A stretch of DNA of 43,366 bases, taken from contig JABJOX010000028.1 of the NCBI GenBank assembly GCA_018664115.1, forward strand, positions 1 through 43,366, in the 5' to 3' direction. The notes beneath the pieces are model-generated. The model worked only from the letters and a program-made list of their open reading frames with translations, did not search any database and was not told the origin of the DNA. The DNA comes from Candidatus Woesearchaeota archaeon (GTDB taxonomy: Archaea > Nanobdellota > Nanobdellia > Woesearchaeales > GW2011-AR9). Positions 12,880 to 39,247 of the stretch are shown one piece after another. Position 1 is the first letter of the stretch. The number at the start of each line of letters is the position of its first letter. Made by a program: the position numbers and the translations under genes.

Positions 12880-14616
12880 ATGAAAATCTTAACAATCCAT
12901 GCAGACTTTATTGAATTTCAAGCTAAAAAGAAAGCTTTCAAAGGTGCTGAAGCAGATGTTGAAAAAGGCAGTAGTGAAAGAGTTGAAGAATGTTTAGTTG
13001 TCTTTACAGCAGTAGAAAAGCGAGATGAAAGTAATGTTAAAGGGATTGTTAAAAAGTATCTTGCTGAAATTAAAGATATTGCAAAGCAAGTTAAAACTGA
13101 AAATATTGTTCTTTATCCTTACGCACATCTAAGTTCTAGTTTATCTAATCCTCAAACAGCAGAAGAAGTGATGAAAGAAGCAGAAAAGAAACTTAAGAAA
13201 GATTTCAAAGTTACTCGAGCGCCATTTGGTTGGTACAAAAGTTTTAATGTTTCTTGTAAAGGTCATCCTCTTTCAGAGTTAAGTAGAGAATTTTCTGTTG
13301 AGGAAGGAAAAGATGGAGAAGAAGTTGAAGAAGAAGTAGACATGCCCAATTTATTGAAAAAGATGTCTCACGTACAAATGACTGCTCCACGAGGGAAGAA
13401 TGATCAGAAAAGTAATGTGGAATTAGGAAAAGAGCTTGATTTATATTTTGTAAGTGAGATTGTTGGTGGTGGGTTACCTTTATTTACTTCTAAAGGGGCA
13501 ACTATTAAAAGAGAAATTGAACGTTTTGTAATTGATGAAGAAATTAAACGTGGTTATCTACATACTTCTACACCAGTAATGGCTAAAAGTGATTTGTATA
13601 AAGTATCTGGTCATTGGCAGCACTATAAAGATGATATGTTTTCTTTACAAGTTAGGGGAGAAACTTTTGCTTTAAGGCCAATGACTTGTCCATTTCAGTT
13701 TATCATCTATAAACATAAACCCAGAAGTTACAAAGATTTACCAATTGGCTATGCAGAACTTGCTCAGTTATTTAGAAATGAGAAGTCTGGAGAACTAAGA
13801 GGACTAACGCGAGTTAGACAATTTACTTTGGCGGATGCACACATTATTTGCCAACCAGAAAAACTTGAAGAAGAATTTGCCAAAGTTCTTGATTTGGTTA
13901 AGTTTATGATGGAAAAACTGGGAATTAAAGATATCTGGTATAGATTTTCTAAATGGGATTCTAAAGATAAAAAAGGAAAATATATTGATCATCCTGAAGC
14001 TTGGGATGATTCTCAGAAGTCAATGAGAAAAATTTTGAACAAATTGAAAGTTAAATTTGTTGAAGTAGAAGGAGAAGCCGCTTTTTATGGTCCAAAATTA
14101 GATTTGCAGTATAAAGATATTTATGGCAAAGAAGATACTTTAATCACAATTCAAATTGATTTTGCTCTTCCAGAAAGGTATGATCTAACTTATACTGATA
14201 AAGATGGTAAAGAAAAGCGTCCGATGGTAATTCATCGTTCATCTTCAGGAGCTACAGAAAGGACTATGGCTTACTTGTTAGAAACGTATCAAGGGAAATT
14301 TCCAGCGTGGTTAAGTCCGGTACAAGTTAAACTTGTTACCATTACGGATGACAATGTTCCTTTTGCTAAGAAAGTTATGCAGCAATTAGTTGATGTTGGT
14401 ATTCGTGTAGAGTTAGATGACCGAATGGAATCAATGGGTAAGAAAGTTCGTGATGCTCAGATGGAGAAAGTGAATTACATTGTTACTATTGGTGACAAAG
14501 AAGTTGAGAAGAAAACACTTGCTGTCCGAAACAGAGAAGGTAAAACTAAGTTCGATGTCAAAGTAGATAAGTTTGTTAAAGATTTATTGAAAGAGATTTC
14601 GGAGAAGAAAGTTTAA
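12880..14616 (+). CDS. thrS: Threonyl-tRNA synthetase, archaeal type
   Basis: Archaeal editing domain MKILTIHADFIEFQAKKKAFKGAE; class II motifs RPMTCPFQFIIYKHKPRSYKDLPIGYAELAQLFRNE. Confidence 0.96.
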   Translation: MKILTIHADFIEFQAKKKAFKGAEADVEKGSSERVEECLVVFTAVEKRDESNVKGIVKKYLAEIKDIAKQVKTENIVLYPYAHLSSSLSNPQTAEEVMKEAEKKLKKDFKVTRAPFGWYKSFNVSCKGHPLSELSREFSVEEGKDGEEVEEEVDMPNLLKKMSHVQMTAPRGKNDQKSNVELGKELDLYFVSEIVGGGLPLFTSKGATIKREIERFVIDEEIKRGYLHTSTPVMAKSDLYKVSGHWQHYKDDMFSLQVRGETFALRPMTCPFQFIIYKHKPRSYKDLPIGYAELAQLFRNEKSGELRGLTRVRQFTLADAHIICQPEKLEEEFAKVLDLVKFMMEKLGIKDIWYRFSKWDSKDKKGKYIDHPEAWDDSQKSMRKILNKLKVKFVEVEGEAAFYGPKLDLQYKDIYGKEDTLITIQIDFALPERYDLTYTDKDGKEKRPMVIHRSSSGATERTMAYLLETYQGKFPAWLSPVQVKLVTITDDNVPFAKKVMQQLVDVGIRVELDDRMESMGKKVRDAQMEKVNYIVTIGDKEVEKKTLAVRNREGKTKFDVKVDKFVKDLLKEISEKKV

Positions 14617-15389: not shown

Positions 15390-16517
15390 TCATCCTAACC
15401 ATTTATTTTTCAATTCTTCGAAACTACCATCTTCAATACTATCTCTAATCTCATCCATCATTCTTTTAAAGAAATAAAGGTTGTGGTATGTTGTTAAAGT
15501 ATTGAATAATATCTCTTTAGCTTTGTATAAATGATGGATATATCCGCGGGAAAAGTTTTTACATACATAACAATGGCAATTGTTATCAATTGGTTGAAGA
15601 TCTTCTTTAAATTTTGATTTAGTGGTTTGATAACGGAATTTATTAGCTTCATTTCCACCAGATTCTGGACGGAAAAAGACAATGCCTTGTCTTGCTAATC
15701 TGGTTGGTAAAACACAGTCAAAAGTGTCTAGTCCTAAAGAAACATAATTAAAAATGTCTTCTACTGCACCAATTCCGAGAAGATGTTTAGTTTTTTCTTC
15801 AGGAAGGAATTGCATTGCATGTTTTACTAATTCAAAACTTTCTTCTTTTGGATCGCCGAAGATTGAACCGATAGATAAAGCATCGAAATCTAATGAAGAA
15901 ATGAACTTAGCACTTTCTTCTCTAAGTTCTTTAAATCTTCCACCTTGCACAATTCCGTAGAGTGCTTGTTTTTGATCTTGGTTAAGTTTTTTGAATTCTG
16001 TCAGGCTTCTTTTTTCCCAAGCGTGTGTTCGGGCTAAAGATTCTTTTGTTGTTTCGTAATCAGCATTAATATCTAAACATTGATCAAACGCAAAAATTAA
16101 GTCTGCTCCTAACTTACGTTGAATTTGCATAGATTTTTCAGGAGTGAATTCGTGTTTAGAAGAATCAATGTGAGATTTGAATGTCACTTTATCTTCATCA
16201 ACTTTACATAAGCCATCATTTAAACTGAAAACTTGAAATCCTCCTGAGTCTGTGAACATTGGTTTATGCCAGGCAGATATTTTTTGTAATCCACCTAATT
16301 TTTCGATTGTTTCTGCGCCTGGTTGTAAATAGAGATGATAAGTATTGGAAAGAATGGCATCAAAACCAATTTCATTTAATTGTGTTGGGGTTAATGATTT
16401 TACAGTGGCTTTAGTAGCTACAGGAATGAACGCAGGAGTTTTAATTTCTCCATGAGCTGTTTTAATTATTCCTGTTCTTGCTTGTCCAAGTTTCTTGTTT
16501 ATTGTGAATGAAAACAT
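15390..16517 (-). CDS. tgt: tRNA-guanine/queuine transglycosylase, bacterial-type
   Basis: FTDSGGFQVFSL, YGIVQGG, TFDCVLPTRLARQG, Zn site CHCYVCKNFSRGYIHHL; no archaeosine-TGT C-terminal domains. Confidence 0.92.
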   Translation of the reverse strand: MFSFTINKKLGQARTGIIKTAHGEIKTPAFIPVATKATVKSLTPTQLNEIGFDAILSNTYHLYLQPGAETIEKLGGLQKISAWHKPMFTDSGGFQVFSLNDGLCKVDEDKVTFKSHIDSSKHEFTPEKSMQIQRKLGADLIFAFDQCLDINADYETTKESLARTHAWEKRSLTEFKKLNQDQKQALYGIVQGGRFKELREESAKFISSLDFDALSIGSIFGDPKEESFELVKHAMQFLPEEKTKHLLGIGAVEDIFNYVSLGLDTFDCVLPTRLARQGIVFFRPESGGNEANKFRYQTTKSKFKEDLQPIDNNCHCYVCKNFSRGYIHHLYKAKEILFNTLTTYHNLYFFKRMMDEIRDSIEDGSFEELKNKWLG

Positions 16518-20706: not shown

Positions 20707-20770
20707 ACATTTTTTCTCACTTTGTTCGTAAAAACATTTATAAATGACTGCTTGATTATGAGTGTTAGTT

Positions 20771-20892
20771 GGGGCTGTAGCTCAATCTGGATTGCTTTTC
20801 TTTTAGAAGCAAGGAAAAGAGAGCACTAGACTGAAGATACAATTGTTGTAATTGAAATCTAGGTGTTCGGGGTTCAAATCCCCGCAGCCCCA
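20771..20892 (+). tRNA. tRNA-Phe(GAA) with two introns (D-loop and 37/38)
   Basis: Acceptor GGGGCTG/CAGCCCC plus A73; T-arm CGGGG-TTCAAAT-CCCCG; anticodon arm CTAGA-CTGAAG/A-TCTAG; removing 20791..20818 and 20837..20856 gives a standard 74-nt tRNA. Confidence 0.92.
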
Positions 20893-20941
20893 CATTTTTC
20901 TTAACGCTAAATTTATATACTCTAATTCTTTTTCTTAAGAG

Positions 20942-21595: not shown

Positions 21596-21662
21596 GCTAC
21601 TTATTTAGTTAATCATTTCTTTGTATTAGTCTTTTTTAAATTAAATACTACTACTATTGTAT

Positions 21663-21678
21663 GTTACAAAATAGTAAC
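21663..21678. promoter_or_regulatory. TTAC-N6-GTAA palindrome upstream of the SMC TATA box
   Basis: GTTACAAAATAGTAAC directly before ATTTATAAAT. Confidence 0.45.
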
Positions 21679-21729
21679 ATTTATAAATTAAAAACAAAAC
21701 GTTATATACATCAAAGAGAGTGGTTTATT

Positions 21730-24700
21730 ATGACTAAAATAAATAGGATTGCAATTCATGGATTCAAGAGTTTTGCTCACAAGACAGATGTTCCTTTTGA
21801 TAGTAAATTTAATTGTATACTGGGTCCTAACGGGAGCGGGAAATCAAATATTGGGGATGCACTTTGTTTCGTTCTAGGTAGAATTTCAGCTAAATCTATG
21901 CGGGCAGAGAAAGCCGCGAATTTAATTTTCAACGGTGGTAAGAAAAAAACTCCTGCTCAGAAAGCTTATGTAGAGATTGCTTTTTGTAATAAAAATAATA
22001 TCTTTCCTCACCAAGATAAAGAAATTGTAGTTAATAGAACTATTACTAAAAAAGGAGCTAGCACTTATCGGATTAATGATAAGAAACATACTCGGTCAGA
22101 AGTGTTAGACTTATTATCTGCTGCAAAAATTAATCCTGACGGGCACAATATTGTTTTACAGGGAGACATCATGAAATTTGTTGATATGTCTCCAGTAGAA
22201 AGAAGAAAAGTTATTGAAGAAATTAGTGATGTTTCTGCTTATGAAGAAAAGAAACATAAAGCAACTTTAGAATTAAATAAAGTTGAAGATAAATTAAATA
22301 ATGCTGAAATAATTCTTAAAGAGAGAAAAACCTATTTACGAGAATTAAAAAAAGATCGTGACCAGGCTTTGAAATTTAAAGAATTGAAAGATCAAATTGA
22401 TTCTTATAAAGCTACTAATTATCATTTGCAAATTGAAGAAAAAGAGAAAGTTAAAGCTAAGTATGATCAAGAGATGGGTAAGAATCATGGTAAGATTGGT
22501 TCTGCAGAAAAACAAATTGAAAAATTGTTGACTACTATTAAAGTTAATAAAGAAAAAATTTCTACAATCAATAAAGAGATTGAACAGAAAGGTGAGAAAG
22601 AACAATTAACTATTCATCGGGAAATTGAAGATTTGAAAGTTTCCCTTACTAAAGATAAAGCGAGAATTTCGACATTGAAAGATGAGATTAATAAAATTCA
22701 ACAAAGGAAAGATCAGTTTGGTCAAGAATTGACTGATTTGGATGATAAGTTTTCTTCTTCTGGTGAAAAACAAAAAGATTTACAATTAAAAATTAAACAA
22801 AAAAATAATGAGATTGAAAATTTAGGAAAAAGTATTGCTGCTTTTAAAAAGAAAAATAAAATTGAATCTTCACAGGAAATTGAAGAAGAACTTGAAAGTA
22901 AAGATAAACTAATTGAACAGAAGCAAGAAGAAGTACAAAAGATTCGTCAGGAACAACAAGAATTATTAAGAGAAAAAGATAAAGTAGAGTATCAATTGGA
23001 AACTATTGACGAGAAGATTAAGAAAGTTAAAGAAATTGAAAAAGAAAGTAAAGGGCAATTGAAAGAATTGCAAGATAAGAAAACTAATTTTAAGCAATCA
23101 ACTTTAAGATTAAACCAATGTTTAGATCAGGATAGTAGTTTTGCTTCTCAGCTTGCTAATGCTCGTCGAAACTTAGTGGGTTTACAAGAAAAACATTCAC
23201 AATTAAATGCGAAAACAATGTCTATTCAAGCAGGGTTATCAGGTAATCGGGCAGTTTCTTCAATTTTAGATAATAAGAAAAAGTTTAAAGGCGTACATGG
23301 AACTATCTCGGAATTAGGGCAAGTAAAGAGAAAGTTTGCTACTGCTTTAGAAACTGCTGCTGGTGGAAGAATGCAACAAATAGTAGTTGACAATGAACAA
23401 GTTGCCGCTGATTGTATTAAGTATTTGAAAAATAATAAGTTGGGTTCTGCTTCGTTTATTCCTTTAAATAAAATTCGTTATCGTGAAGTTTCTTCTGATG
23501 ATAAAAGGTTATTAAAGACGAACGGTGTACAAGATTTTGCGATTAATTTAGTTTCATTTAAATCACAATATCAAAAAGCGTTTGCTTATGTTTTTGGTAA
23601 CACTTTAGTTGTGGATGATATCAGTGTGGCTAGAAATGTAGGTATTGGGAAAATTAAAATGAGTACTATTGACGGAAATATTGCTGAGGCTAGTGGTGTT
23701 ATGCGTGGCGGTTTTTTAAGAAAATCTTCAGTGGGTTTTAAAGAAAAAGATTCTTTAGAACAGTTGGAGGGTATAGAAAGAGAAATTGCTGAGATAGAAA
23801 ATGTTATCTCTTCTGTGGAAACAAAAAGAGCAGCAAATGAACAAGAAATTAGTTCTTTAAGAAATTTGAAAGGGGAGTTAGAAGTTGATGTTATCAAGTT
23901 GGAAAAAACTTTACACTTAGATGGTTCAGATTTATCAATGACTGGTGATTTGAAGAAAGAGTTACATGATCAATTAAAAGAAGTTAATGAAAAGTTAGGA
24001 AATATTGGTAAAAATGTCTCTGTTATTAACCAGGAATTAGCAGGATTGAAAACAAAAAAACATACTTTAAGATCACAAATTTCTGAATTAAGAAATCCTA
24101 GATTGTTAGCACAGTTAAGTGCATTTGAAGAGTCTAAACAATCGAATAAAGAGGATTTAATTCGATTAGAGAATGAATTAAAGAACAGTTCTGAACAAGT
24201 AAGTCAGTTAATTTCTCCAGAGAAAGAGAAGATTAAAGAGATTCTTAAACAACATCAGAAAGAAGAAGTAGAATTCAATTCTGAGATTAAGAAATTATCT
24301 GAAACTATTAAAAATGGGGATAAAAATTTAGACCAAAAAGAAAAGAATAGTAAAGAGTTTTATTCTAAGTATCGGGAATTATTTAATCAAAGAGAAAAAT
24401 TCAGTACAGAGACTAATAAAGCAGAGAACGAAATGGAAAATGTTCGAGAGAAAGTTCGTGGTAGTGAAAGAGAAATCAATTTAGTTTCGTTAAGAAATGC
24501 GGAAGTGAAAGCCAAACTTGCTGCTTTGAAAGAAGGATTTAGCAAATATAAAGATGCTCAAATATTGAAAGGTAAAACTAAAGAAGAATTGCAACGAGAA
24601 ATTAATAAATTTGAAGTTATGTTAGGACAGATGTCTGCTGTAAACATGAAAGCGTTAGAAGTTTATGAAGAAGTAGAGAAAGAATATACTAAACTTGTTA

Positions 24701-25221
24701 ACAAGAAAGATTCGTTAGGAACAGAAAAAACTGATGTTTTATCATTAATGAACGAGATTGAAACTAAGAAAAAAGATCAGTTTATGAAAACATTTAATGA
24801 TGCTAACGAGAATTTCAGAACAATCTTTGAAAGTTTATTCAAGAAAGGTAAAGCCTATTTACAATTAAACAATCCTAACAAACCATTTGAAGATGGTTTA
24901 AGTATTAAAGTTAAACTTACTGGGACAAGATTTATGGATATCAAATCTCTTTCTGGGGGAGAGAAAACACTTACTGCTTTATCGTTCATTTTTGCTATTC
25001 AGGAATATCAACCTGCTTCATTTTATATCTTAGATGAGATTGATGCCGCTCTTGATAAACATAATTCTGATACTCTTGCGAAACTGATCAGAAATTATTC
25101 TGGCAAAGCTCAATATTTAGTAATTTCTCACAATGATGCGTTGATTTCAGAAGCAGATAATCTTTACGGTGTTTCAATGAACGAGCATGGAATTAGTAAA
25201 GTTACTAGTTTGAAGATATAG
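21730..25221 (+). CDS. smc: Chromosome segregation protein SMC
   Basis: GPNGSGKSN, hinge GVHGTISELGQV, LSGGEKTLTALSFIFAIQ, DEIDAALDKHN; start MTKINRIAIHGFKSFAHKT. Confidence 0.96.
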   Translation: MTKINRIAIHGFKSFAHKTDVPFDSKFNCILGPNGSGKSNIGDALCFVLGRISAKSMRAEKAANLIFNGGKKKTPAQKAYVEIAFCNKNNIFPHQDKEIVVNRTITKKGASTYRINDKKHTRSEVLDLLSAAKINPDGHNIVLQGDIMKFVDMSPVERRKVIEEISDVSAYEEKKHKATLELNKVEDKLNNAEIILKERKTYLRELKKDRDQALKFKELKDQIDSYKATNYHLQIEEKEKVKAKYDQEMGKNHGKIGSAEKQIEKLLTTIKVNKEKISTINKEIEQKGEKEQLTIHREIEDLKVSLTKDKARISTLKDEINKIQQRKDQFGQELTDLDDKFSSSGEKQKDLQLKIKQKNNEIENLGKSIAAFKKKNKIESSQEIEEELESKDKLIEQKQEEVQKIRQEQQELLREKDKVEYQLETIDEKIKKVKEIEKESKGQLKELQDKKTNFKQSTLRLNQCLDQDSSFASQLANARRNLVGLQEKHSQLNAKTMSIQAGLSGNRAVSSILDNKKKFKGVHGTISELGQVKRKFATALETAAGGRMQQIVVDNEQVAADCIKYLKNNKLGSASFIPLNKIRYREVSSDDKRLLKTNGVQDFAINLVSFKSQYQKAFAYVFGNTLVVDDISVARNVGIGKIKMSTIDGNIAEASGVMRGGFLRKSSVGFKEKDSLEQLEGIEREIAEIENVISSVETKRAANEQEISSLRNLKGELEVDVIKLEKTLHLDGSDLSMTGDLKKELHDQLKEVNEKLGNIGKNVSVINQELAGLKTKKHTLRSQISELRNPRLLAQLSAFEESKQSNKEDLIRLENELKNSSEQVSQLISPEKEKIKEILKQHQKEEVEFNSEIKKLSETIKNGDKNLDQKEKNSKEFYSKYRELFNQREKFSTETNKAENEMENVREKVRGSEREINLVSLRNAEVKAKLAALKEGFSKYKDAQILKGKTKEELQREINKFEVMLGQMSAVNMKALEVYEEVEKEYTKLVNKKDSLGTEKTDVLSLMNEIETKKKDQFMKTFNDANENFRTIFESLFKKGKAYLQLNNPNKPFEDGLSIKVKLTGTRFMDIKSLSGGEKTLTALSFIFAIQEYQPASFYILDEIDAALDKHNSDTLAKLIRNYSGKAQYLVISHNDALISEADNLYGVSMNEHGISKVTSLKI

Positions 25222-26330: not shown

Positions 26331-29300
26331 ATGGATAGTAGATTTAATCAATTGTTTTCAGTTTTTGCTATATTTATCGTAGTGATTGGTTTTGGAGTTT
26401 TACTTAATTTAGATGATTCTCAGCTTAATAATGCTGAATTAAATTTTAATAATTTGTTTGGATCAGAAGGAAATGTTCTTACCGGTGCGGTTATTGGGAT
26501 TGGTTCTGGGGAAACTGGAGCTGATGAGTCTGTAATTGAAGAAGTAATTGTTGATGATGATTCAGAATCAAATTCTGTTATATTGAATGATGATTTGACT
26601 TTACATGCAAATTGTGGTGATGGTTTTGGTACTTGTGCTTGTGCTGATCAACTTCTCGGGAGTTATAATTTGTCTTTTGATTTAAGTTGTACTGATAGTG
26701 GTATAACTATTGGTGGTCCTAATCTTGTTTTTGATTGTAGGGGGCATAGTATTACTGGAGATGGCGGTGGTGGTCCGGATACTGGTTTTACAAATAATGG
26801 GGTTTGGAGTAATGTTACTATTAAAAATTGTGTTATTGGGGGATTTGGACAGGGGATTAATTTTCAGCACGCTGTTAATGCCACAATTTGGAATAATACT
26901 ATTGGTCATATTAATATTAGCGAACCTGCTTGGGGAATTAGTTTTACTAATTGTTCTGAAGCAAATATTTCTAATAATGTTGTTACTAATATTAGTTCTG
27001 ATAATCTAGATAGTCCATATGGTATTCAGTATGCTGAAGCTATGAATAGTGCTCTTTATGATGCTGTAATTTATAGTAACAATATTTCTCGAATTTATGG
27101 GGTAGATAATCTTGTTCCTTATGGTTTGGGTATAGGTGATGCAAATTTTCCTACTCTTAATAATGTTAGATTTGAGAATAATATAATTGAGAATATTAAT
27201 TGTACTACTGGTAGTACGGGTACTTGTGCACTTTTAGGTGGTATTGGTCTTAAAATTAGTAGTGGGACTAATTTTAATATTTCTAATAACCAATTTAATT
27301 ATTTAGGGACGGGAATTATACCTGACCAACCTAATTTAAGAATTGTCAATAATGATTTTAAATCTAGTTCTTATGGTATCTACAATTTAAATAATGTAGG
27401 GGCAGCTAGTACTCGTTTTAATCATAGTTGGATTGAAAATAATACTTTTGATGGATTAACAGAAGGCGTTTATCTTTTTGGAAATAATCATAATAATACT
27501 TTTTTGAACAATAACTTTAGTAATAATTTACCATTTTCTATTCGGGATGATACAGTTAGTATTACTAACAATACTGTGATTTACAATAGTTCTATGGGAG
27601 AAATCAAATGGGATAAAGCAAATATTACTACTAGTATCACTTTAGGGGTTAATTCATCTGATCTTTATATTGAAAATGGTACTATTGGTTTGCTTAACAG
27701 TATTAATATGTTTAAGTTGAATGATACAGCCAGATTAACATTCAGAGGTTTAGCTTATTCTGCTGCTCCGTTCTTGTTAAAAGATGGAACTAGATGCGAT
27801 AATGGAAATGCTTGTAACATTACTTATGATGCTAGTACGGGGATCTTGCTAGCTAATGTCAGTAGTTTCAGTAATTATACCTTACAAGAGGGAGTTGATT
27901 CTACTCTTCCTTACTTTGATCCCACTCCAACAAATCAGTCTGTAGAATATGGAAGTGAATTTAATTATGATGTTAATGGTACTGATGAAACTGCAGTGGG
28001 AAATTATTCAGTTAATGATACTACTCAATTTAGAATTAATGGAAGTGGTATGATTAGCAATGCAACTCATCTACATTATGGCGTGATTGCTCTTAATGTT
28101 TCTTTAAATGATTCTAGTAATAATGTTAATAGTACAATTATTTTTATTAATGTGACTGATACTACGCCTTCTAGTTTTAGTCCTACTCCTACAAATCAAA
28201 CCGTTCAATATTTGGCTAACTTTTTTTATGATTTAAATGGTTCTGATAATTATAATGTTAGTAGTTTCACTGTTAATGACACTAATCAGTTTAAAATTAA
28301 TTCTAGTGGTGGATTGACAAACGTTAGTAATCTTCATTATGGTGTGATTGCAGTTAATGTAAGTGTTAATGACACTTTTAACAATACTAATAGTACAATC
28401 ATTTTTGTTAATATTACCGATACCACTCTTCCAAGATTTGACCCTACTCCAACAAATCAATCTATGGAATACTTAGTTAATTTCTTTTATGATTTAAATG
28501 GAAGTGATAATTATAATATTAGTAGTTTTACAATCAATGATACAGTGAGTTTTAAGATTAATAGTAGTGGTGGATTAACAAATAAAACTAATAATGTTTT
28601 GGCAGGATTTTATGGAATAAATGTTAGTGTTAATGATACTTTTAACAATACAAATTCTACAATTATCTTTATTAATGTTTCAGATACTATCTCTGCAACA
28701 ATAGATGTTATTGGTCCTGTTGGTCCAACTAATGGTACGACCGTAGAATTGATGTTATTAACATCAGAGAATGCCAGTTGTTATTATAAAAACGCAACTA
28801 TTGGTTATACCCCTTTCAATGTTACTTTAGCGAATACTACTCATCAACATATTTTGAATAATAGTTTTTCTGCAGGTAATCACCAGTACAATTTCTTTTG
28901 TAATGATACCTCTAATAATAATGCTAGTGCTTCAATAACATTATTGGTTACAACTACCAATGTCACTAATTCTAGTGTGGTTTCTTCAACTTTAACAGCT
29001 AATACCTCTAATATTTTAGATTTAACTACAGAATTAAATTTAACGTTTAATGTTTCTAAAGATTATTCTCCGGCGATTTCAGTTTCAATGTACAAGTATA
29101 ATACTACCCCGGAAACGAGTGCTTTTGCAATTACAGGAAGTACTATTACTGAATTTAAATATTATGTGATTGATGCGCCTGCTGTTTCTGGTAATATTAA
29201 TAAAATTACAATGAAATTTACTTATAATGAAACTGATGTTGTTGCTGCAGGAATTGCTGAAGCTGATCTTAAAGTTTATTATTATAATGCGACTGCTGGT

Positions 29301-30209
29301 ACTTGGACTGAAGAAAGTGAGCAGGGTGTAGATACAGATTTAAATCATCTTGAAGTTAATGTTACTCATTTAAGTACTTTTATTTTAGGTAAAGCTGCTG
29401 TGACGGCTGCTGCTAGTGCTGCTGCTAGTAGTTCTAGTAGTAGTTCAAGTTCGGGTAGTAGTGGTAGTGGTTTACCGCCTGCCCCTACACCGTCTGCAGG
29501 ATCAGCGGCTGCGGCTTTTATTGAGGATAAAAGTGATACCTCGGAAGATGAAGAAAAAGTTCAAGAAGCATCTTCAGAGTTAGATGAAGAAAGACGTTTA
29601 GGAATTATTGGTTGGGATAAATATAAAGGGATCATTATTAACTTAAGTGGGATTCTGATTGGGGTTCTTGTTCTGGTAATTATTGGCAGTTTATTTGTTC
29701 GGTCACATCATAATCTTTTGTTAAAGAGAAAATATAACACTGGAGAAACTATTTGGTCAAAGATTAAACTGTTCTTTAGAGATAATAAGAAAAATGTTAA
29801 ATTAACTTTGATGATAATTGCGGGTTTATTATTCTTGGGATTGTTAGTTTATTTAATTTATTCTTCCTGGTCTCAAATTGTTTTATCTTTAAGTAAAGTT
29901 TGGGCTTGGTTGTATACTGTTGGGATTTTGAATCAGTTTAGGGGTATTTTTATAGCGTTAATTATATTACTAATTATTGGTGCTTTATTTATTAGGTCTC
30001 ATCATGAATTTTTATTGAAAAAAAAAACTGAGAAAGTTAACAAGTTTAAATGGAAAACTTTTTTTAAAAAACACGGGAAAATGATCAAATTGGTTTCAAT
30101 AATTGTTCTTATCTTATTGGTTTTGGCAGTTATAATTTATTTAATTTATTTTTATTTTTCAGCTATTAGTTCTTTTTTTAGTAGGATTTGGTCTTGGTTG
30201 TTTAATTAG
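26331..30209 (+). CDS. Giant exported beta-helix surface protein with Ig/cadherin-like repeats and C-terminal TM modules
   Basis: N-terminal TM; parallel beta-helix (NISNNVVTNISS...); three ~90-aa PTPTNQSVEY repeats; Ser/Gly/Pro linker; duplicated 2-TM module. Confidence 0.85.
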   Translation: MDSRFNQLFSVFAIFIVVIGFGVLLNLDDSQLNNAELNFNNLFGSEGNVLTGAVIGIGSGETGADESVIEEVIVDDDSESNSVILNDDLTLHANCGDGFGTCACADQLLGSYNLSFDLSCTDSGITIGGPNLVFDCRGHSITGDGGGGPDTGFTNNGVWSNVTIKNCVIGGFGQGINFQHAVNATIWNNTIGHINISEPAWGISFTNCSEANISNNVVTNISSDNLDSPYGIQYAEAMNSALYDAVIYSNNISRIYGVDNLVPYGLGIGDANFPTLNNVRFENNIIENINCTTGSTGTCALLGGIGLKISSGTNFNISNNQFNYLGTGIIPDQPNLRIVNNDFKSSSYGIYNLNNVGAASTRFNHSWIENNTFDGLTEGVYLFGNNHNNTFLNNNFSNNLPFSIRDDTVSITNNTVIYNSSMGEIKWDKANITTSITLGVNSSDLYIENGTIGLLNSINMFKLNDTARLTFRGLAYSAAPFLLKDGTRCDNGNACNITYDASTGILLANVSSFSNYTLQEGVDSTLPYFDPTPTNQSVEYGSEFNYDVNGTDETAVGNYSVNDTTQFRINGSGMISNATHLHYGVIALNVSLNDSSNNVNSTIIFINVTDTTPSSFSPTPTNQTVQYLANFFYDLNGSDNYNVSSFTVNDTNQFKINSSGGLTNVSNLHYGVIAVNVSVNDTFNNTNSTIIFVNITDTTLPRFDPTPTNQSMEYLVNFFYDLNGSDNYNISSFTINDTVSFKINSSGGLTNKTNNVLAGFYGINVSVNDTFNNTNSTIIFINVSDTISATIDVIGPVGPTNGTTVELMLLTSENASCYYKNATIGYTPFNVTLANTTHQHILNNSFSAGNHQYNFFCNDTSNNNASASITLLVTTTNVTNSSVVSSTLTANTSNILDLTTELNLTFNVSKDYSPAISVSMYKYNTTPETSAFAITGSTITEFKYYVIDAPAVSGNINKITMKFTYNETDVVAAGIAEADLKVYYYNATAGTWTEESEQGVDTDLNHLEVNVTHLSTFILGKAAVTAAASAAASSSSSSSSSGSSGSGLPPAPTPSAGSAAAAFIEDKSDTSEDEEKVQEASSELDEERRLGIIGWDKYKGIIINLSGILIGVLVLVIIGSLFVRSHHNLLLKRKYNTGETIWSKIKLFFRDNKKNVKLTLMIIAGLLFLGLLVYLIYSSWSQIVLSLSKVWAWLYTVGILNQFRGIFIALIILLIIGALFIRSHHEFLLKKKTEKVNKFKWKTFFKKHGKMIKLVSIIVLILLVLAVIIYLIYFYFSAISSFFSRIWSWLFN

Positions 30210-31617: not shown

Positions 31618-32103
31618 TTGAAAGTACAAAAAGAAGAGGAAATAGTAAAAGTAATCTCTCGGCTAGCTAATCTTCTCTCTGATGAAAACAAAAAAGCGCT
31701 TGCTAAAGAACTTGTTGGAGCTGTAAAAGAAGATAAAGTAAGTCTTCCAATTTCTATTTTTAAAACAAAATTGTCTGCTTTAGGTGCAATTGTTGTTTAT
31801 CTTAAAGATGTTCAGAAATTAAAAGTTAAAGAAATTGCATCGTTATTAAATAGAGAATTAAGCACGATTTATACCACCTATGAATTGGCTAAAACTAAGT
31901 TGAAGAAAGAGATTGATATCTCTGATGATTCCGTATTAGTTCCATTATCTATTTTTTCTAATCGTAAATATGCAGTTCTTGAATCTTTAGTATTTTATCT
32001 TAAAAATGAAAAGAAATTTTCTATGACTGAAATTAGTAAAATTCTGAATAAGAGTTATAGCACGATTAAAACTTCTAATAAGAGGTATAATGATAAGAAA
32101 TAA
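31618..32103 (+). CDS. Duplicated-HTH (sigma region 4-like) regulator, TTG start
   Basis: Two homologous halves: LPISIFKTKLSALGAIVVYLKD...EIASLLNRELSTIYTTYELAK and VPLSIFSNRKYAVLESLVFYLKN...EISKILNKSYSTIKTSNKRYN. Confidence 0.75.
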   Translation: MKVQKEEEIVKVISRLANLLSDENKKALAKELVGAVKEDKVSLPISIFKTKLSALGAIVVYLKDVQKLKVKEIASLLNRELSTIYTTYELAKTKLKKEIDISDDSVLVPLSIFSNRKYAVLESLVFYLKNEKKFSMTEISKILNKSYSTIKTSNKRYNDKK

Positions 32104-35100
32104 TAAAAAAGAGGGCTGGAAGAGGAAAGTTGAGAATATTAGTTCAGGTAATAAAGCGTTCTTAGTCTTATCGTTAGTTTTAGCTTTCTTTTTTATCTTC
32201 TCGTTAAGTTATGGTTATTTGAATGATTCTGACTTTGGCAATTATGAGACTAATTTAATTACTGGTGCGGCTATTGGAATACAAGATCCGATGGTTGTTG
32301 AGGAACCTGTGATTGAGGAACCTGTTATTGAAGATGTTGTTGAAGATGTTATAGAGGAGCAAGATTCAGGAATCATTATTGGGGAACAGGGATTAGGTCT
32401 TGCTGCTGTTGATACCTGTAATAGTTGTGCTGATTGTCAGACTAAAGCGGTTGATGGGGTTACTCTACAATTACTTAACAATATAACCAATCTTGCTGCT
32501 GATTGTATTAATCTTGCTGCTGGAAATTTAGTGATTGATTGTCAAGGATATAGTATTATCTCTGAGAATTCTTTTAGGGGGATCGATGTTAATTTTGGAA
32601 ATACAAATGTTACGGTCAACAATTGTAGTATTTATAATGCAGGTACTGGAGTATATGGAGACGCTCATAACGTTACAGTTGATAATTCTTCATTTTACCA
32701 TAATTCTGTTGGTATTGATATGAGAAGAACAGATCATAATGTGAGAAATAATTATTTTTATAACAATACTGAAGGAATTACTTTCAGTGCTGCTCATAAT
32801 GCCATTATTAGAAATAATAAAATTGTTGGGCTTCTTAATGATGAAGGGATTATTGGTTCTTCCGGTAATGATATTGTTATTGATGGGAATGATCTTTATA
32901 ATCATACTAATGGGATTCTGATTAGTTCTACTAGCTCTAAAACCAATTATGATATAATTAATAATTACATTTATAATTCTACTAATGATGGAATTTCATT
33001 AACTGAAGTTGAACCAAATTTATATTTTGCTAACAATACTATTAATTTATCTTTATCTGATTGTTTAGTGTATAATGGTGATAATAATAATGATAATCAA
33101 ACTTTTTTGAGTAATACATTTGTTAATTGTACTACTAGTTCTTTAGATATACAATTTTCAAGTGATTGCACCGATAATTATTATATTAACAATAGTATTG
33201 ATCCGACCGTTCAATTAAGATACGATCAAAATTGTCCTGTATACTTTATTAATAATTCGTTTAATAAAAGTTGGGTTGATGTTGTTGGCACTACTGGAAG
33301 AACAAATGCTAAATTCTTTGTGCAATGGTATTTAGACGTACATGTTCAGGATACTGCTGCTGCTGCTATTGCAAATGCTAATGTTTCTGTGTTTAATGTT
33401 ACTGGGGATTTGTTTAATATTAGTCAATCTGATGCGAATGGTAATGCTCCAAGATTAGTGGTTACAGAATTTTATCAGAATAATACTAATGTTAAGTTCT
33501 ATGAAACACCGCACAATATAACTGCTAATTTGACAGATTATATTATAAATTATACTTCTGTTAATTTTACTAACAATGAGAGTACTATACTGACGATTGT
33601 CTTGCCTTCTGGTGCGACTAGTTGTGGTGATACAATTACTGCTGATACTACATTAACTGCTGCTTTAAATGGTTGTACTGGTGATGGAATTACTATCGGT
33701 GCTTCAGACATTATTCTTGACTGTGCTAATTTTCAGATTGATGGAGATGGAGATGGTCCTGACTCTGGTGTTTTAAATAGCGGGATTTATAGTAATATTA
33801 CTGTTAAGAATTGTGTAATCAAGAATTTTGGTACTGCGATTGCTTTTTCACATAGTCATAATGTTACCATTTGGAATAATACCCTTGGTCATGTTAATTT
33901 TTCTACTGACACGGGTGGAGGAATTAATTTTGCTAATTGTACTCAAGCAAATATTTCTAATAATATTATTACTAATATCACTGCTGATGCTACAGCTAAT
34001 CCTTTTGGAATTACTTTTGCAGAATTTGTAGGGGATGCTCCTGCTGCTTTAACAGTTTCTAGTTCTGTAATATTTGGAAATAATATTTCTAGAATTTATG
34101 GGGAAGATAATGTCAATCCATTTGGTATAAATTTGGGTGATGCTAACTTTTTAAAAATAGATGGTTTAAAAGTTGATGGTAATGTTATTGAAAATATTAA
34201 TTGTACTTCCGCTGGTGGGGGCACTTCTTGTGAATCTAATGGTGGTATAGGAATTAGGATTAGTTCGGGTACTAATGTTAATATTACTAATAATAATGTT
34301 AGTTATACTGGAACTGCAATTTTACCTAATCAACCTAATTTACGGATTGTAAATAATTATTTTAGAAGTAGTACTTATGGTATTGGTGCATTCCAAGATA
34401 GTGCTAGTATTCGTTTTAATCATAGTTGGATTGAGAACAACACTTTTGATGGGTTAACACAAGGTGTTTATCTTCTTGGAAACAATCACAATAATACTTT
34501 TTTGAATAATAACTTTAGTAATATTTTACAATTTTCAATTTTAGATTTTACTGTGGGCATTACTAATAATAGTGTGATTTATAATAGTTCAATGGGTGAA
34601 ATTAAATGGGATAAATCTAATATTACTACTAATATCACTTTAGGGGTTAATTCATCTGATCTTTATATTGAAAATGGTACAATTGGTTTGATTAATGATA
34701 TTAATACATTTAAATTAAATGATACTGCTCAAATAACTTTTAGGGGATTAGCTTATCCTGTTACTCCACAACTATTGAAAGATAATGTTAGATGTGATGA
34801 TGGAAATACTTGTAATATTACTTATGATACTAGTAATGGAGTTTTAGTAGCTAATATTAGTAGTTTCAGTAATTATACCTTACAAGAGGGAACTCCTCCT
34901 TACTTTGACCCTACTCCAACAAATCAGACGGTCCAATATATTAGTGAGTTTAATTATGATGTTAATGGAACTGATGATACAGCTATAGGAAATTATTCGG
35001 TTAACGATACTGCCCAGTTTAGAATTAATGCTAGTGGTATGATTAGTAATGCTACTCATTTACATTATGGGTTTTATGGTTTAAATATATCTATTAATGA

Positions 35101-38100
35101 TACTTTTAACAATGTTAATAGTACAATAATTTTTATTAATGTAACTGATACTACTGTTCCATATTTTGACCCTACTCCTACAAATCAAACTGTCCAATAT
35201 TCATCTAATTTCTTTTATGACATAAATGGTTCTGATAATTATAATATCAGTAGTTACACTGTTAATGACACTATTCAATTTAAAATTAATAGTAGTGGTG
35301 GTTTGACTAATGTTAGTACTCTTCATTATGGTGTGATTCCAATTAATATTAGTGTTAATGATACTTTTAATAACACTAATAGTACGGTTATTTTCATTAA
35401 CATTACAGATACAACTGCTCCTAGTTTTAGTCCAACGCCAAGTGATCAAAGTGTTCAGGTTGATAATCAGTTCTTGTACGATGTAAATGCTACTGATAAT
35501 TATAACGTTAGTAGTTATACTGTTAATGATACGACTCAGTTCAGCATTAATATTAGCGGTACAATTCTTAACAACACCATTCTTGCTGTTGGGGCTTACA
35601 ATTTGAATATCAGTGTTAATGATACGTTCAATAATACTAAATCTAGTGCGATTGTTGTTACGATAACTGCTATCCCTGCTACACCTCCTGCTGATAGTGG
35701 TGGTTCTTCAAGGGGTTCAGATGCTACTGATTCTGCTCCTGCAACTCCTCCTGAACCTCCTGCACCCCCTTCACCTGCTGCTCCAGCACCAATAGATTCT
35801 GAAAAAGAAGTGCTTTCAGAGAGAGAAGTTCGAGCGATTGCTGATCATATTATTACAGATATTAGGGTTCCAAGATCTGAAATGGCTGCTACTAATCCGG
35901 AAGCTGCTACTGATTTCAGAGAGGGGCCAACTGCTGATAGGGGTGAAGTACAAAGAAATCCAATTTCGGATGTTGAGAAAGTATTAGTTAGAATTTATAA
36001 TCCTGGTGATAAAGATTTAGTGGTTAGTCCGAGAATTAAGAAGAAGATATATGAACTTAAAGATGGGGAGAGGGTTGAAGATATTTTACGTGATAGATTA
36101 CTTGATGAATTTAAAGATATTAATGAGGATGACCTTCGACAAAAAATTGAGGAACGTAAAGAAATAATTTCTTTGATTGAAAGGGAGAATGTTGATTTTA
36201 TTAGTGTCGGTAAAACTGCAAGTTTTTTTGCCGGTGAAGTGGGGATGTATTCTGGTGAACATACCGCTGGTGAATATTTGAGAAATTCATTAATCACCAA
36301 AGAGATTGTTGTTAGGCCAAAAGAAACTGTGGAAACAGAATTATTTTTGAGAAAAGGATTGTCATTAGATCCAAAAGATGTAGAAATTATTTTAGAATCA
36401 AGGGGCGTTTTATTGGAAGAGAAAACCATAGCACCAATTGATGAACGTTTGATTGGTACAGAGATAGATTTTGGTGAAGATGATAATATTATGGATGTTT
36501 ATGTATTAATACCTAAAGAGGTTTCTGAAACTCAGAGTAGAGGTAAGTATCATGTTGAGATTGATATTAATCAAATAGCTTGGAAACAAAGAGATCTTGA
36601 AAATATAATTGTTCCAAGACAAGTAAGTTCTTTTGTAGAATTTTATGGACCTTATGATGTTTTATCTGACAGGGGAGCTTTCTTGGCACAGGAAATAGTG
36701 TACAAGTTTGATCCTAGAAGTGATTATGTTATCAAAAGTAGAATCTACAAAGACGGAACACTTGTTTCAGAGCATGAATTTGAACGCCTTGCTATAGAGA
36801 AAGTTGCAAAAGATGAGTTTTATGATTCTCCTGCTTTAGTAGGTAGAGCATTTGGTACGGCAGTAAAATTGGTTCCATTCGGTTATCGGTCATATTGGTT
36901 TGGATTATTTGTATTGATTATATTAATTATGATTACTATTTATGCTGGATATAGATTACGTAAAATATATGGATTCAAAATTAAACGGAAAGGAGTATTC
37001 GATGATTTAGAAGAAGCAAAAACTGAATTGATTAAAAAGATTAAAGTCGTTCCTACGTTCAAAAGAGGAAAGATTGCTTCTCTAATCATTTTTAAACGTC
37101 GTTTGATTAAAGCGGCTTTAATAGTTTCTTATGGGCTAGCATATCCATTTGTTATTTTATATCGTGGATTTAGATTTGTTAAGAATTTAATTGTTCAACG
37201 GTTTAGAAAGTTGTTTAGACATTCTGCTAAGATGTCTGAAAAAGTAAGTGATGATTATGTTGAAGCTATACGTGATAATAATCGTTTCGTACGTAAAGAA
37301 GTACGTCGGTCTAAAAGAAGTTTGTTTAAGTTTGTCTTGGCTATTATTTCATCATTTGGTTTAGTTATGAAATGGGTTGAACATCAATTTGGAAAGTTGT
37401 TCAGACGTTCTGCTAAGATGTCTGCAAAAGTTAGTGAACAATCTTCTGAAGCTGTGCATGATAGTAATCGTTTTGTTCGTAAAGAAGTTCGTAGGACTGA
37501 AAGAAAACTGTTGAAGTTCTTGTTAGCTATTGGCTTATCTCTACGGGCAGCTAAGAATTGGATTAAGCGACAGTTCAGGAAATTGTTCAGACGTTCAGCT
37601 AAGATGTCTGCAAAAGTAAGTGAACAATCTTCTGAGGCTGTGCATGACAGTAATCGTTTTGTACGTAAAGAAGTACGGCGTACTGAGAAGAAATTGTTGA
37701 AGTTCTTGTTAGCTATTGGCTTGTCTCTACGGGCAGCTAAGAATTGGATTAAGCGACAGTTCAGGAAATTGTTCAGACGTTCTGCTAAGATGTCTGCAAA
37801 AGTAAGTGGAGGAATAAGTGAAACTTCCTCTGCTGTTGTAAAGAGAAGTAAGAATGCAAAGGAAGATGTTAGTGAAGCTTCGTCAATGGTTTTAAAAGAA
37901 AGCAAGAGATCTCTTTGGAAATTTATTAAGAATCTTATTACTGGAACATTATCTGTCTCTAAATCTGCTTTCAAATTTTTAACTAAATGGACTATTTATA
38001 CTCTCAAAGCATTAGTGGTCGGCTTAGCTGTAATAATAAAGGATACTTATCTATTAATTAGAAAAGCAACTATTTGGTCTGGCAAATATTTATTCTTGTT

Positions 38101-39247
38101 ATTGAAATCTGTATCTGTAGGTATTTGGATTGCATTAACTTCAATTGTGAGATTTATATTATTCTTAGTATCTTTTACTCTTCGAAATACTCGGAAATTT
38201 ATGGTCTGGTCTAGAAGCATGATTAGTATTGGTTCATCTAATTTCAAAACTTATCTTTGGAATCATAAATCTTGTCCTCACGTTAAAATTAAAGGGACAG
38301 GAATACCAGCAATTGTTGTTAGTCCACTGAAAAAGAAACCAATCGCTGAATGGAAACAGAGAAGAAAACTTCGTTTAATGGAAGAGATGGAACAGGTGGA
38401 TTTACGTATTAAAGATATTGATAAAGTTTCTTTTAAGAAAATGTTAAAGAAACCTGTAACAGTTGTTTCCAAAAAGAAAAAGATTTTGTTTATTGAAAAA
38501 TTAGCAATTAAAACTAAAACAAAACCAACCATTGTAGAAAAACCTAAAACGGATGTACTTTTAGGTAAGGAATTAAAATGGATTGATAGAAGTTTAACTA
38601 ATTTAGATAAAAAGAAAGTAACAAGAACTACTCGGGGTATTAAGAAATCAATTATAGAAGAACGAGTTGTAGATAATATTGCAGATAAAAAAGCAATTGA
38701 AGAAGTAGTTAAAATATCTAAGGAGTTAGAAGAAAAACATCAACTTGCTAGAAAGAATGAAAGTAAATTACAAAAAGAATTAGAAAAATTAAATCAAAAA
38801 ATATCTTCAATTGATCGTCCGGTTAAGAAATCAACTAGGAAAGTAAACGTTAAAAATATTGGATCTATTTTTAAATCAAAGCGTAGAGATATAATTGCTG
38901 AACAAAATGCGGTTCAGGAAGTTATTAAAGTATCTAAAGAGTTAGAAGAAAGACATCAACTTGCTAGAAAGAATGGAAGTAAGTTACAAAAAGAATTGGA
39001 AAAATTAGATATGAAGTTGTATAAATTAAATCATCCGGTGAAAAATGAGAAGAAGAGAAAAGTTTTGAATATTCCCAGAAAGTTATCTGTTAATAATACT
39101 ACTGTTTTAGCTGGCCGTAAAGCGGTTCGGGAAGTTAATAAAATATCTAAAGAGCTAGAGAAGAAACACCTGTTGGAAGAAATGAGGGGTTCTAAACTTA
39201 ATAAAGAATTGAAGAAAGTTGAAAAGATTATTAGTAAGCTAAGATAA
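32090..39247 (+). CDS. 2385-aa giant surface protein: beta-helix, Ig-like repeats, Pro linker, multi-TM region, cytoplasmic repeat/coiled-coil tail
   Basis: Continuous ORF; paralogous ectodomain to 26331..30209; three near-identical 62-aa repeats; three ~72-aa coiled-coil repeats at the C-terminus. Confidence 0.85.
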   Translation: MIRNNKKEGWKRKVENISSGNKAFLVLSLVLAFFFIFSLSYGYLNDSDFGNYETNLITGAAIGIQDPMVVEEPVIEEPVIEDVVEDVIEEQDSGIIIGEQGLGLAAVDTCNSCADCQTKAVDGVTLQLLNNITNLAADCINLAAGNLVIDCQGYSIISENSFRGIDVNFGNTNVTVNNCSIYNAGTGVYGDAHNVTVDNSSFYHNSVGIDMRRTDHNVRNNYFYNNTEGITFSAAHNAIIRNNKIVGLLNDEGIIGSSGNDIVIDGNDLYNHTNGILISSTSSKTNYDIINNYIYNSTNDGISLTEVEPNLYFANNTINLSLSDCLVYNGDNNNDNQTFLSNTFVNCTTSSLDIQFSSDCTDNYYINNSIDPTVQLRYDQNCPVYFINNSFNKSWVDVVGTTGRTNAKFFVQWYLDVHVQDTAAAAIANANVSVFNVTGDLFNISQSDANGNAPRLVVTEFYQNNTNVKFYETPHNITANLTDYIINYTSVNFTNNESTILTIVLPSGATSCGDTITADTTLTAALNGCTGDGITIGASDIILDCANFQIDGDGDGPDSGVLNSGIYSNITVKNCVIKNFGTAIAFSHSHNVTIWNNTLGHVNFSTDTGGGINFANCTQANISNNIITNITADATANPFGITFAEFVGDAPAALTVSSSVIFGNNISRIYGEDNVNPFGINLGDANFLKIDGLKVDGNVIENINCTSAGGGTSCESNGGIGIRISSGTNVNITNNNVSYTGTAILPNQPNLRIVNNYFRSSTYGIGAFQDSASIRFNHSWIENNTFDGLTQGVYLLGNNHNNTFLNNNFSNILQFSILDFTVGITNNSVIYNSSMGEIKWDKSNITTNITLGVNSSDLYIENGTIGLINDINTFKLNDTAQITFRGLAYPVTPQLLKDNVRCDDGNTCNITYDTSNGVLVANISSFSNYTLQEGTPPYFDPTPTNQTVQYISEFNYDVNGTDDTAIGNYSVNDTAQFRINASGMISNATHLHYGFYGLNISINDTFNNVNSTIIFINVTDTTVPYFDPTPTNQTVQYSSNFFYDINGSDNYNISSYTVNDTIQFKINSSGGLTNVSTLHYGVIPINISVNDTFNNTNSTVIFINITDTTAPSFSPTPSDQSVQVDNQFLYDVNATDNYNVSSYTVNDTTQFSINISGTILNNTILAVGAYNLNISVNDTFNNTKSSAIVVTITAIPATPPADSGGSSRGSDATDSAPATPPEPPAPPSPAAPAPIDSEKEVLSEREVRAIADHIITDIRVPRSEMAATNPEAATDFREGPTADRGEVQRNPISDVEKVLVRIYNPGDKDLVVSPRIKKKIYELKDGERVEDILRDRLLDEFKDINEDDLRQKIEERKEIISLIERENVDFISVGKTASFFAGEVGMYSGEHTAGEYLRNSLITKEIVVRPKETVETELFLRKGLSLDPKDVEIILESRGVLLEEKTIAPIDERLIGTEIDFGEDDNIMDVYVLIPKEVSETQSRGKYHVEIDINQIAWKQRDLENIIVPRQVSSFVEFYGPYDVLSDRGAFLAQEIVYKFDPRSDYVIKSRIYKDGTLVSEHEFERLAIEKVAKDEFYDSPALVGRAFGTAVKLVPFGYRSYWFGLFVLIILIMITIYAGYRLRKIYGFKIKRKGVFDDLEEAKTELIKKIKVVPTFKRGKIASLIIFKRRLIKAALIVSYGLAYPFVILYRGFRFVKNLIVQRFRKLFRHSAKMSEKVSDDYVEAIRDNNRFVRKEVRRSKRSLFKFVLAIISSFGLVMKWVEHQFGKLFRRSAKMSAKVSEQSSEAVHDSNRFVRKEVRRTERKLLKFLLAIGLSLRAAKNWIKRQFRKLFRRSAKMSAKVSEQSSEAVHDSNRFVRKEVRRTEKKLLKFLLAIGLSLRAAKNWIKRQFRKLFRRSAKMSAKVSGGISETSSAVVKRSKNAKEDVSEASSMVLKESKRSLWKFIKNLITGTLSVSKSAFKFLTKWTIYTLKALVVGLAVIIKDTYLLIRKATIWSGKYLFLLLKSVSVGIWIALTSIVRFILFLVSFTLRNTRKFMVWSRSMISIGSSNFKTYLWNHKSCPHVKIKGTGIPAIVVSPLKKKPIAEWKQRRKLRLMEEMEQVDLRIKDIDKVSFKKMLKKPVTVVSKKKKILFIEKLAIKTKTKPTIVEKPKTDVLLGKELKWIDRSLTNLDKKKVTRTTRGIKKSIIEERVVDNIADKKAIEEVVKISKELEEKHQLARKNESKLQKELEKLNQKISSIDRPVKKSTRKVNVKNIGSIFKSKRRDIIAEQNAVQEVIKVSKELEERHQLARKNGSKLQKELEKLDMKLYKLNHPVKNEKKRKVLNIPRKLSVNNTTVLAGRKAVREVNKISKELEKKHLLEEMRGSKLNKELKKVEKIISKLR
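37205..37810 (+). repeat. Tandem 186-bp coding repeats in the giant protein
   Basis: KLFRRSAKMSAKVSEQSSEAVHDSNRFVRKEVRRTE...WIKRQFR repeated; units near 37205, 37391, 37577 plus a partial at 37763. Confidence 0.85.

Follow-up and report, generated by a model that had tools for sequence, protein, structure and literature searches.

The window analyzed here, a contig of 43,366 nucleotides (C12), belongs to a 1.12-Mb metagenome-assembled genome of a Candidatus Woesearchaeota archaeon (G000), which is 86.6% complete and may contain binning errors. Rfam model RF00005 matches positions 20771-20892 on the forward strand (50.8 bits, E 4e-8). ARAGORN reports no tRNA in the unspliced gene, with or without its anticodon-intron option, and calls tRNA-Phe(gaa) once two inserts, one in the D-loop and one in the anticodon loop, are taken out. 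The features of the locus are as follows.

20737..20744, + strand: TATA-like box TTTATAAA, about 30 nt upstream of the gene (read directly from the sequence; presumed function)
20771..20892, + strand: precursor gene of tRNA-Phe(GAA), 122 nt
20771..20790, + strand: exon 1, tRNA positions 1-19 (identical in three congeneric species; aligned with intronless relatives)
20791..20818, + strand: intron 1, D-loop, 28 nt, position 19/20 (placed by bulge-helix-bulge geometry and by relatives)
20819..20836, + strand: exon 2, positions 20-37, with anticodon GAA at 20833-20835
20837..20856, + strand: intron 2, anticodon loop, 20 nt, canonical position 37/38 (placed by its bulges and inner stem)
20857..20892, + strand: exon 3, positions 38-73
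20895..20899, + strand: T-run just 3' of the gene, possible archaeal terminator (read directly; presumed function)

The three exons join to GGGGCTGTAGCTCAATCTGGGAGAGCACTAGACTGAAGATCTAGGTGTTCGGGGTTCAAATCCCCGCAGCCCCA, which folds into a cloverleaf with anticodon GAA, U33, and a purine at position 37; exon joining and the ARAGORN call agree on the 74 nt that an earlier note on this DNA had given for the mature form. An uninterrupted tRNA-Phe gene elsewhere, named by that note as the observation to set against its reading, was looked for and not found, nor was any second tRNA-Phe gene, either in the source genome or in its 97%-complete congener G001; another congener, G002, likewise yielded no other tRNA-Phe gene. 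An intact copy could sit in the missing part of the source genome, though the more complete G001 has none. The TATA-like box also precedes the tRNA-Phe gene in G001, G002, and G012. Genes for an archaeal-type threonyl-tRNA synthetase with an editing domain (12880-14616, +) and a tRNA-guanine transglycosylase (15390-16517, -) lie 4 to 8 kb upstream, and downstream follow an SMC protein (21661-25221, +), a 1292-amino-acid protein without a Pfam match (26331-30209, +), and a 2385-amino-acid beta-helix protein (32090-39247, +). A large protein of the window has a 71%-identical relative in Candidatus Woesearchaeota archaeon SI039_bin18.

Both inserts are flanked by the elements of a bulge-helix-bulge (BHB) motif. 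In the D-loop intron, two 3-nt bulges, GG^A (20789-20791) and AA^G (20817-20819; ^ marks the cut), surround a 4-nt central helix (20785-20788/20813-20816), followed by a 6-bp inner stem, UUGCUU/AAGCAA (20792-20797/20807-20812). The central helix, AUCU/GGAA, forms three of four pairs (two Watson-Crick, one G-U, and one mismatch), and the outer helix opens with an A.A mismatch ahead of the D-stem, which makes this a relaxed form. Shuffled versions of this D-loop intron reach the observed pairing of central helix and inner stem in 0.45% of trials. The anticodon intron has bulges AG^A (20835-20837) and AA^A (20855-20857) and an inner stem UACAA/UUGUA (20838-20842/20846-20850); its central helix, CUGA/AUUG, retains two of four pairs (one C-G Watson-Crick pair and one G-U) with two mismatches. 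The central helices are thus imperfect, as the earlier note had it. Taken alone, the anticodon intron is the weaker case, since 6.5% of shuffles reach its observed pairing; it is kept in three species of the genus, and the cloverleaf requires its removal. The complete 4-bp central helix of a strict BHB motif is present at 37/38 in G009, G010, and G021 and absent at this position from the genus of the source genome. The anticodon intron is therefore a markedly relaxed motif, and the D-loop intron of the genus is relaxed as well. Reading the anticodon intron as 20838-20857 leaves the product unchanged. A 29-nt D-loop intron, which would leave an 8-nt D-loop, also lets ARAGORN call tRNA-Phe, but it conflicts with the bulge geometry and with the D-loops of relatives.

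To test these borders, the spliced tRNA was fitted to the tRNA-Phe loci of relatives, among them 28 genomes of the same family with a readable tRNA-Phe. Five of these (G003, G006, G030, G031, and G060) carry an intronless gene with a 9-nt D-loop. We regard the exon/intron borders as settled because these intronless relatives give the same exon junctions; the earlier coordinates of two BHB-type introns all proved correct, and the D-loop splice sites appear to be fixed by bulge geometry and relatives together. D-loop introns occur in 12 of the 28 genomes, at 19/20 in G000, G001, G002, and G013 and at 20/21 in G005, G012, G016, G021, G035, G066, G070, and G071. Other tRNA-Phe introns of the family lie at 29/30, 37/38, 53/54, or 59/60. 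Other families of the order contributed eleven more D-loop introns, including seven at 18/19, so that 23 genomes of the order carry a D-loop intron in tRNA-Phe, in three adjacent registers (18/19, 19/20, and 20/21). The 18/19 forms of the other families are near-strict BHB motifs; in the 19/20 and 20/21 forms of the family studied here the outer helix is interrupted.

The 23 introns share one border pattern. In each, the predicted cuts fall within 3-nt bulges, of which the 5' one almost always reads [GT]G^A and the 3' one AA^R, and the central helices covary with the exon (TCTG/CAGA, CCTG/CAGG, ACTG/CAGT, GCCT/GGGC, and AGCC/GGCT). In the 22 other species, shuffles reach the observed pairing in approximately 0.03 to 2% of trials per species, with close relatives being nonindependent. 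Within the genus, G000, G001, and G002 share all 74 exon nucleotides, and the D-loop intron varies in sequence and in length (28, 29, and 27 nt, respectively). On an EndA tree, the presence of the D-loop intron took seven label changes, not clearly better than shuffled labels, which left single versus repeated gain undecided. Two tRNA-Phe genes hold three introns each, in the D-loop, anticodon loop, and T-loop in G035 (L030, 1441-1607) and at 29/30 and in the anticodon loop and T-loop in G216 (L146, 74-279).

The genome encodes the enzymes that splicing would call for. EndA combines both domains (PF02778 and PF01974) in one open reading frame with the catalytic Y/H/K residues, and RtcB is present in one copy; nearly every genome of the family has an EndA gene, one copy per genome. 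On these grounds, we consider it highly probable (about 0.93) that the locus is a functional tRNA-Phe gene whose two BHB-like introns are cut by a single EndA and whose exons are joined by RtcB. In the precursor, the D-arm and the anticodon arm would each form a BHB-like motif, EndA would cut every 3-nt bulge after its second nucleotide to release introns of 28 and 20 nt, and RtcB would ligate the three exons into the 74-nt tRNA-Phe. Transcription, cutting, ligation, the order of the two excisions, and an alpha4 homotetrameric EndA are steps that we infer from sequence. Counting against this explanation are the weak central helix of the anticodon intron, the type of EndA, the incompleteness of the genome, and a predicted minimum-energy fold of the unspliced molecule in which the D-stem does not form.

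Which form of EndA would do the cutting is less clear. The earlier note had suggested a relaxed-specificity endonuclease, a proposal that the one EndA found does not demonstrate: it is alpha type, lacks the CSL/ASL insertions, and has no detectable beta partner of the Nanoarchaeum equitans kind. The loop that would bear a CSL/ASL insertion (between FG and VELSLLE) is about as long as in Methanocaldococcus jannaschii in 25 of 26 family proteins, the remaining one being unmatched by the search pattern, and in these 25 no insertion with a conserved lysine was found in the N-terminal domain. With its two-domain alpha architecture, its catalytic residues, its acidic C-terminal loop (VDxExDVTYY), and no CSL/ASL, the protein resembles the alpha4 EndA of M. 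jannaschii (PDB 1A79). That enzyme is described as narrow (PMC6379350), whereas the likely substrates here include relaxed motifs. More generally, alpha-type EndA without CSL/ASL has been described as strict for the BHB motif (PMC4090602, PMC6379350), and efficient removal of relaxed BHB introns has been credited only to (alpha-beta)2 and epsilon2 enzymes (PMC6379350). As far as sequences can tell, there is thus a real tension between an EndA of narrow-type architecture and relaxed introns in the same lineage, and the explanation would be either an EndA unusually permissive for its class or a diverged partner that escaped detection.

The second of these options would assign the same introns to an (alpha-beta)2 enzyme like those of Nanoarchaeum or Crenarchaeota, with a beta subunit too diverged or too short to detect. 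The best PDB matches of EndA, alongside M. kandleri EndA and 1A79, include the N. equitans alpha subunit (3IEY), which is the top match in a single-sequence search and belongs to a broad (alpha-beta)2 enzyme with a beta partner, the counterpart of which was not found here. A profile of Woesearchaeal EndA recovers the N. equitans beta subunit from the PDB at 5e-16, yet it detected no second credible EndA homologue in ten genomes, several of them more than 95% complete. The same profile barely sees the short Pyrobaculum aerophilum beta subunit (E 0.11) and does not list that of Aeropyrum pernix, so that a short beta of crenarchaeal type would escape it. The insertion (CSL) of the crenarchaeal alpha is absent, however, and the acidic C-terminal loop is like that of the M. 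jannaschii homotetramer and unlike those of the N. equitans and Sulfolobus tokodaii alpha subunits, although this likeness is suggestive only. Taken together, we judge an overlooked beta subunit to be rather unlikely. It is tempting to speculate that Woesearchaeota splice D-loop, T-loop, T-stem, and multiple introns, many of them relaxed, with an alpha-only EndA free of CSL/ASL, neither beta nor these loops being required, but we put this forward tentatively, as somewhat less than an even bet. If an alpha-only enzyme does remove these introns, the accepted correspondence between the subunit type of EndA and its substrate range would need revision. In G018, PF01974 gave a weak second match (E 0.014), but inspection revealed no EndA-like open reading frame there, and the match was taken as chance. 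The idea that a Lys-rich, variable N-terminal tail, seen in the EndA of several intron-rich species, loosens specificity was unsupported; tail charge and tRNA-Phe intron number gave a Spearman coefficient of 0.32 (p 0.11) over 26 genomes.

Two further readings concern the gene rather than the enzyme. Only the anticodon insert might be a true intron, with the D-loop insert being retained after maturation and enlarging the D-loop. Such a loop would leave the anticodon undamaged, and the fold predicted after removal of the anticodon insert alone retains an extended D-loop hairpin. Nevertheless, the insert is found in three neighboring registers and is missing from relatives with an otherwise similar tRNA, its border pattern of bulges and helix is conserved and covaries with the exon, and it interrupts the conserved G-rich segment of the D-loop that docks with the T-loop; we consider a retained insert very improbable. 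Least probable of all is a decaying pseudogene with random insertions, which would fit the failure of ARAGORN on the unspliced gene and the incompleteness of the genome but not the intact stems, the exons invariant across the genus, the retained TATA-like box, or the lack of any other tRNA-Phe found in G000, G001, and G002.

Introns in the D-loop, and several introns in one tRNA gene, have been described before in other archaea; the present gene belongs to this kind, which is abundant in its lineage. Noncanonical intron positions including 20/21 have been reviewed for Crenarchaeota and Nanoarchaeota (PMC4090602), so that the rarity ascribed to the D-loop intron by the earlier note has to be qualified; in this order the D-loop of tRNA-Phe is a recurrent site, with introns in 23 genomes. 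The present intron shares with the reviewed ones its short length, D-loop location, 3-nt bulges, 4-nt central helix, and presumed removal by EndA. It differs in its Woesearchaeota host, its partly degenerate central helix, and its position at 19/20, which, like 18/19, is missing from the open-ended list of that review. Genes with two or three tRNA introns are established for Thermoproteales and Thaumarchaeota (PMC8450103, PMC6379350), and the Woesearchaeal genes resemble them in both intron number and high density; the crenarchaeal enzyme, however, is (alpha-beta)2 with a CSL, whereas only an alpha-type EndA was seen here. Among the open-access papers searched, none dealt with tRNA introns of Woesearchaeota, which does not prove that no such paper exists. 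The order also supplies 23 natural variants of a single D-loop intron, spread over three neighboring registers and accompanied by intronless relatives.

The tRNA-Phe gene is not an isolated case in its genome. Using a purpose-written parser with hand-corrected borders on this incomplete genome, we found that at least 17 of the 22 tRNA genes that could be read contain introns. At least 21 introns were counted in the 22 parsed genes, compared with 0.84 per gene in Thermoproteales and 0.21 in the archaeal average (tRNAscan-SE 2.0; PMC8450103), densities obtained with a different program. A large uncultured DPANN lineage would thus have a tRNA intron density like that of the most intron-rich archaea, and because of this density standard annotation easily overlooks its tRNA genes. 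Two introns each are present in four genes: tRNA-Phe, Thr(TGT) and a TAT-anticodon tRNA (both at 37/38 and 59/60), and Ile(GAT) (29/30 and 37/38). tRNA-Pro(GGG) (L017, G000:C26:10524-10631, -) has a 33-nt D-loop intron, also at 19/20, whose central helix is GCTT/GAGC; T-loop introns interrupt the Asp and Leu(CAA) genes, and the Arg(TCG) gene is interrupted at 53/54.

Two genes for tRNA-Met(CAT) give one and the same sequence after splicing; the first (L004, 1195-1269, C55) has no intron, and the second (L016, 193-309, C65) has a 42-nt anticodon-loop intron. The pair may reflect either a genuine duplication or mixed binning. A tRNA-Thr-like gene with anticodon AGT (A34) occurs in three species (L008, 1501-1591, G000:C52:16452-16542; L132, G002:C71:9044-9134; L131, G010:C28:37644-37716) and is uninterrupted in G010. 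Genes for tRNAs with an unmodified A34 are said to be very few across life (PMC11066159). Matches to the deaminase family PF00383 number one in G010, in a 336-amino-acid frame, and four in G000.
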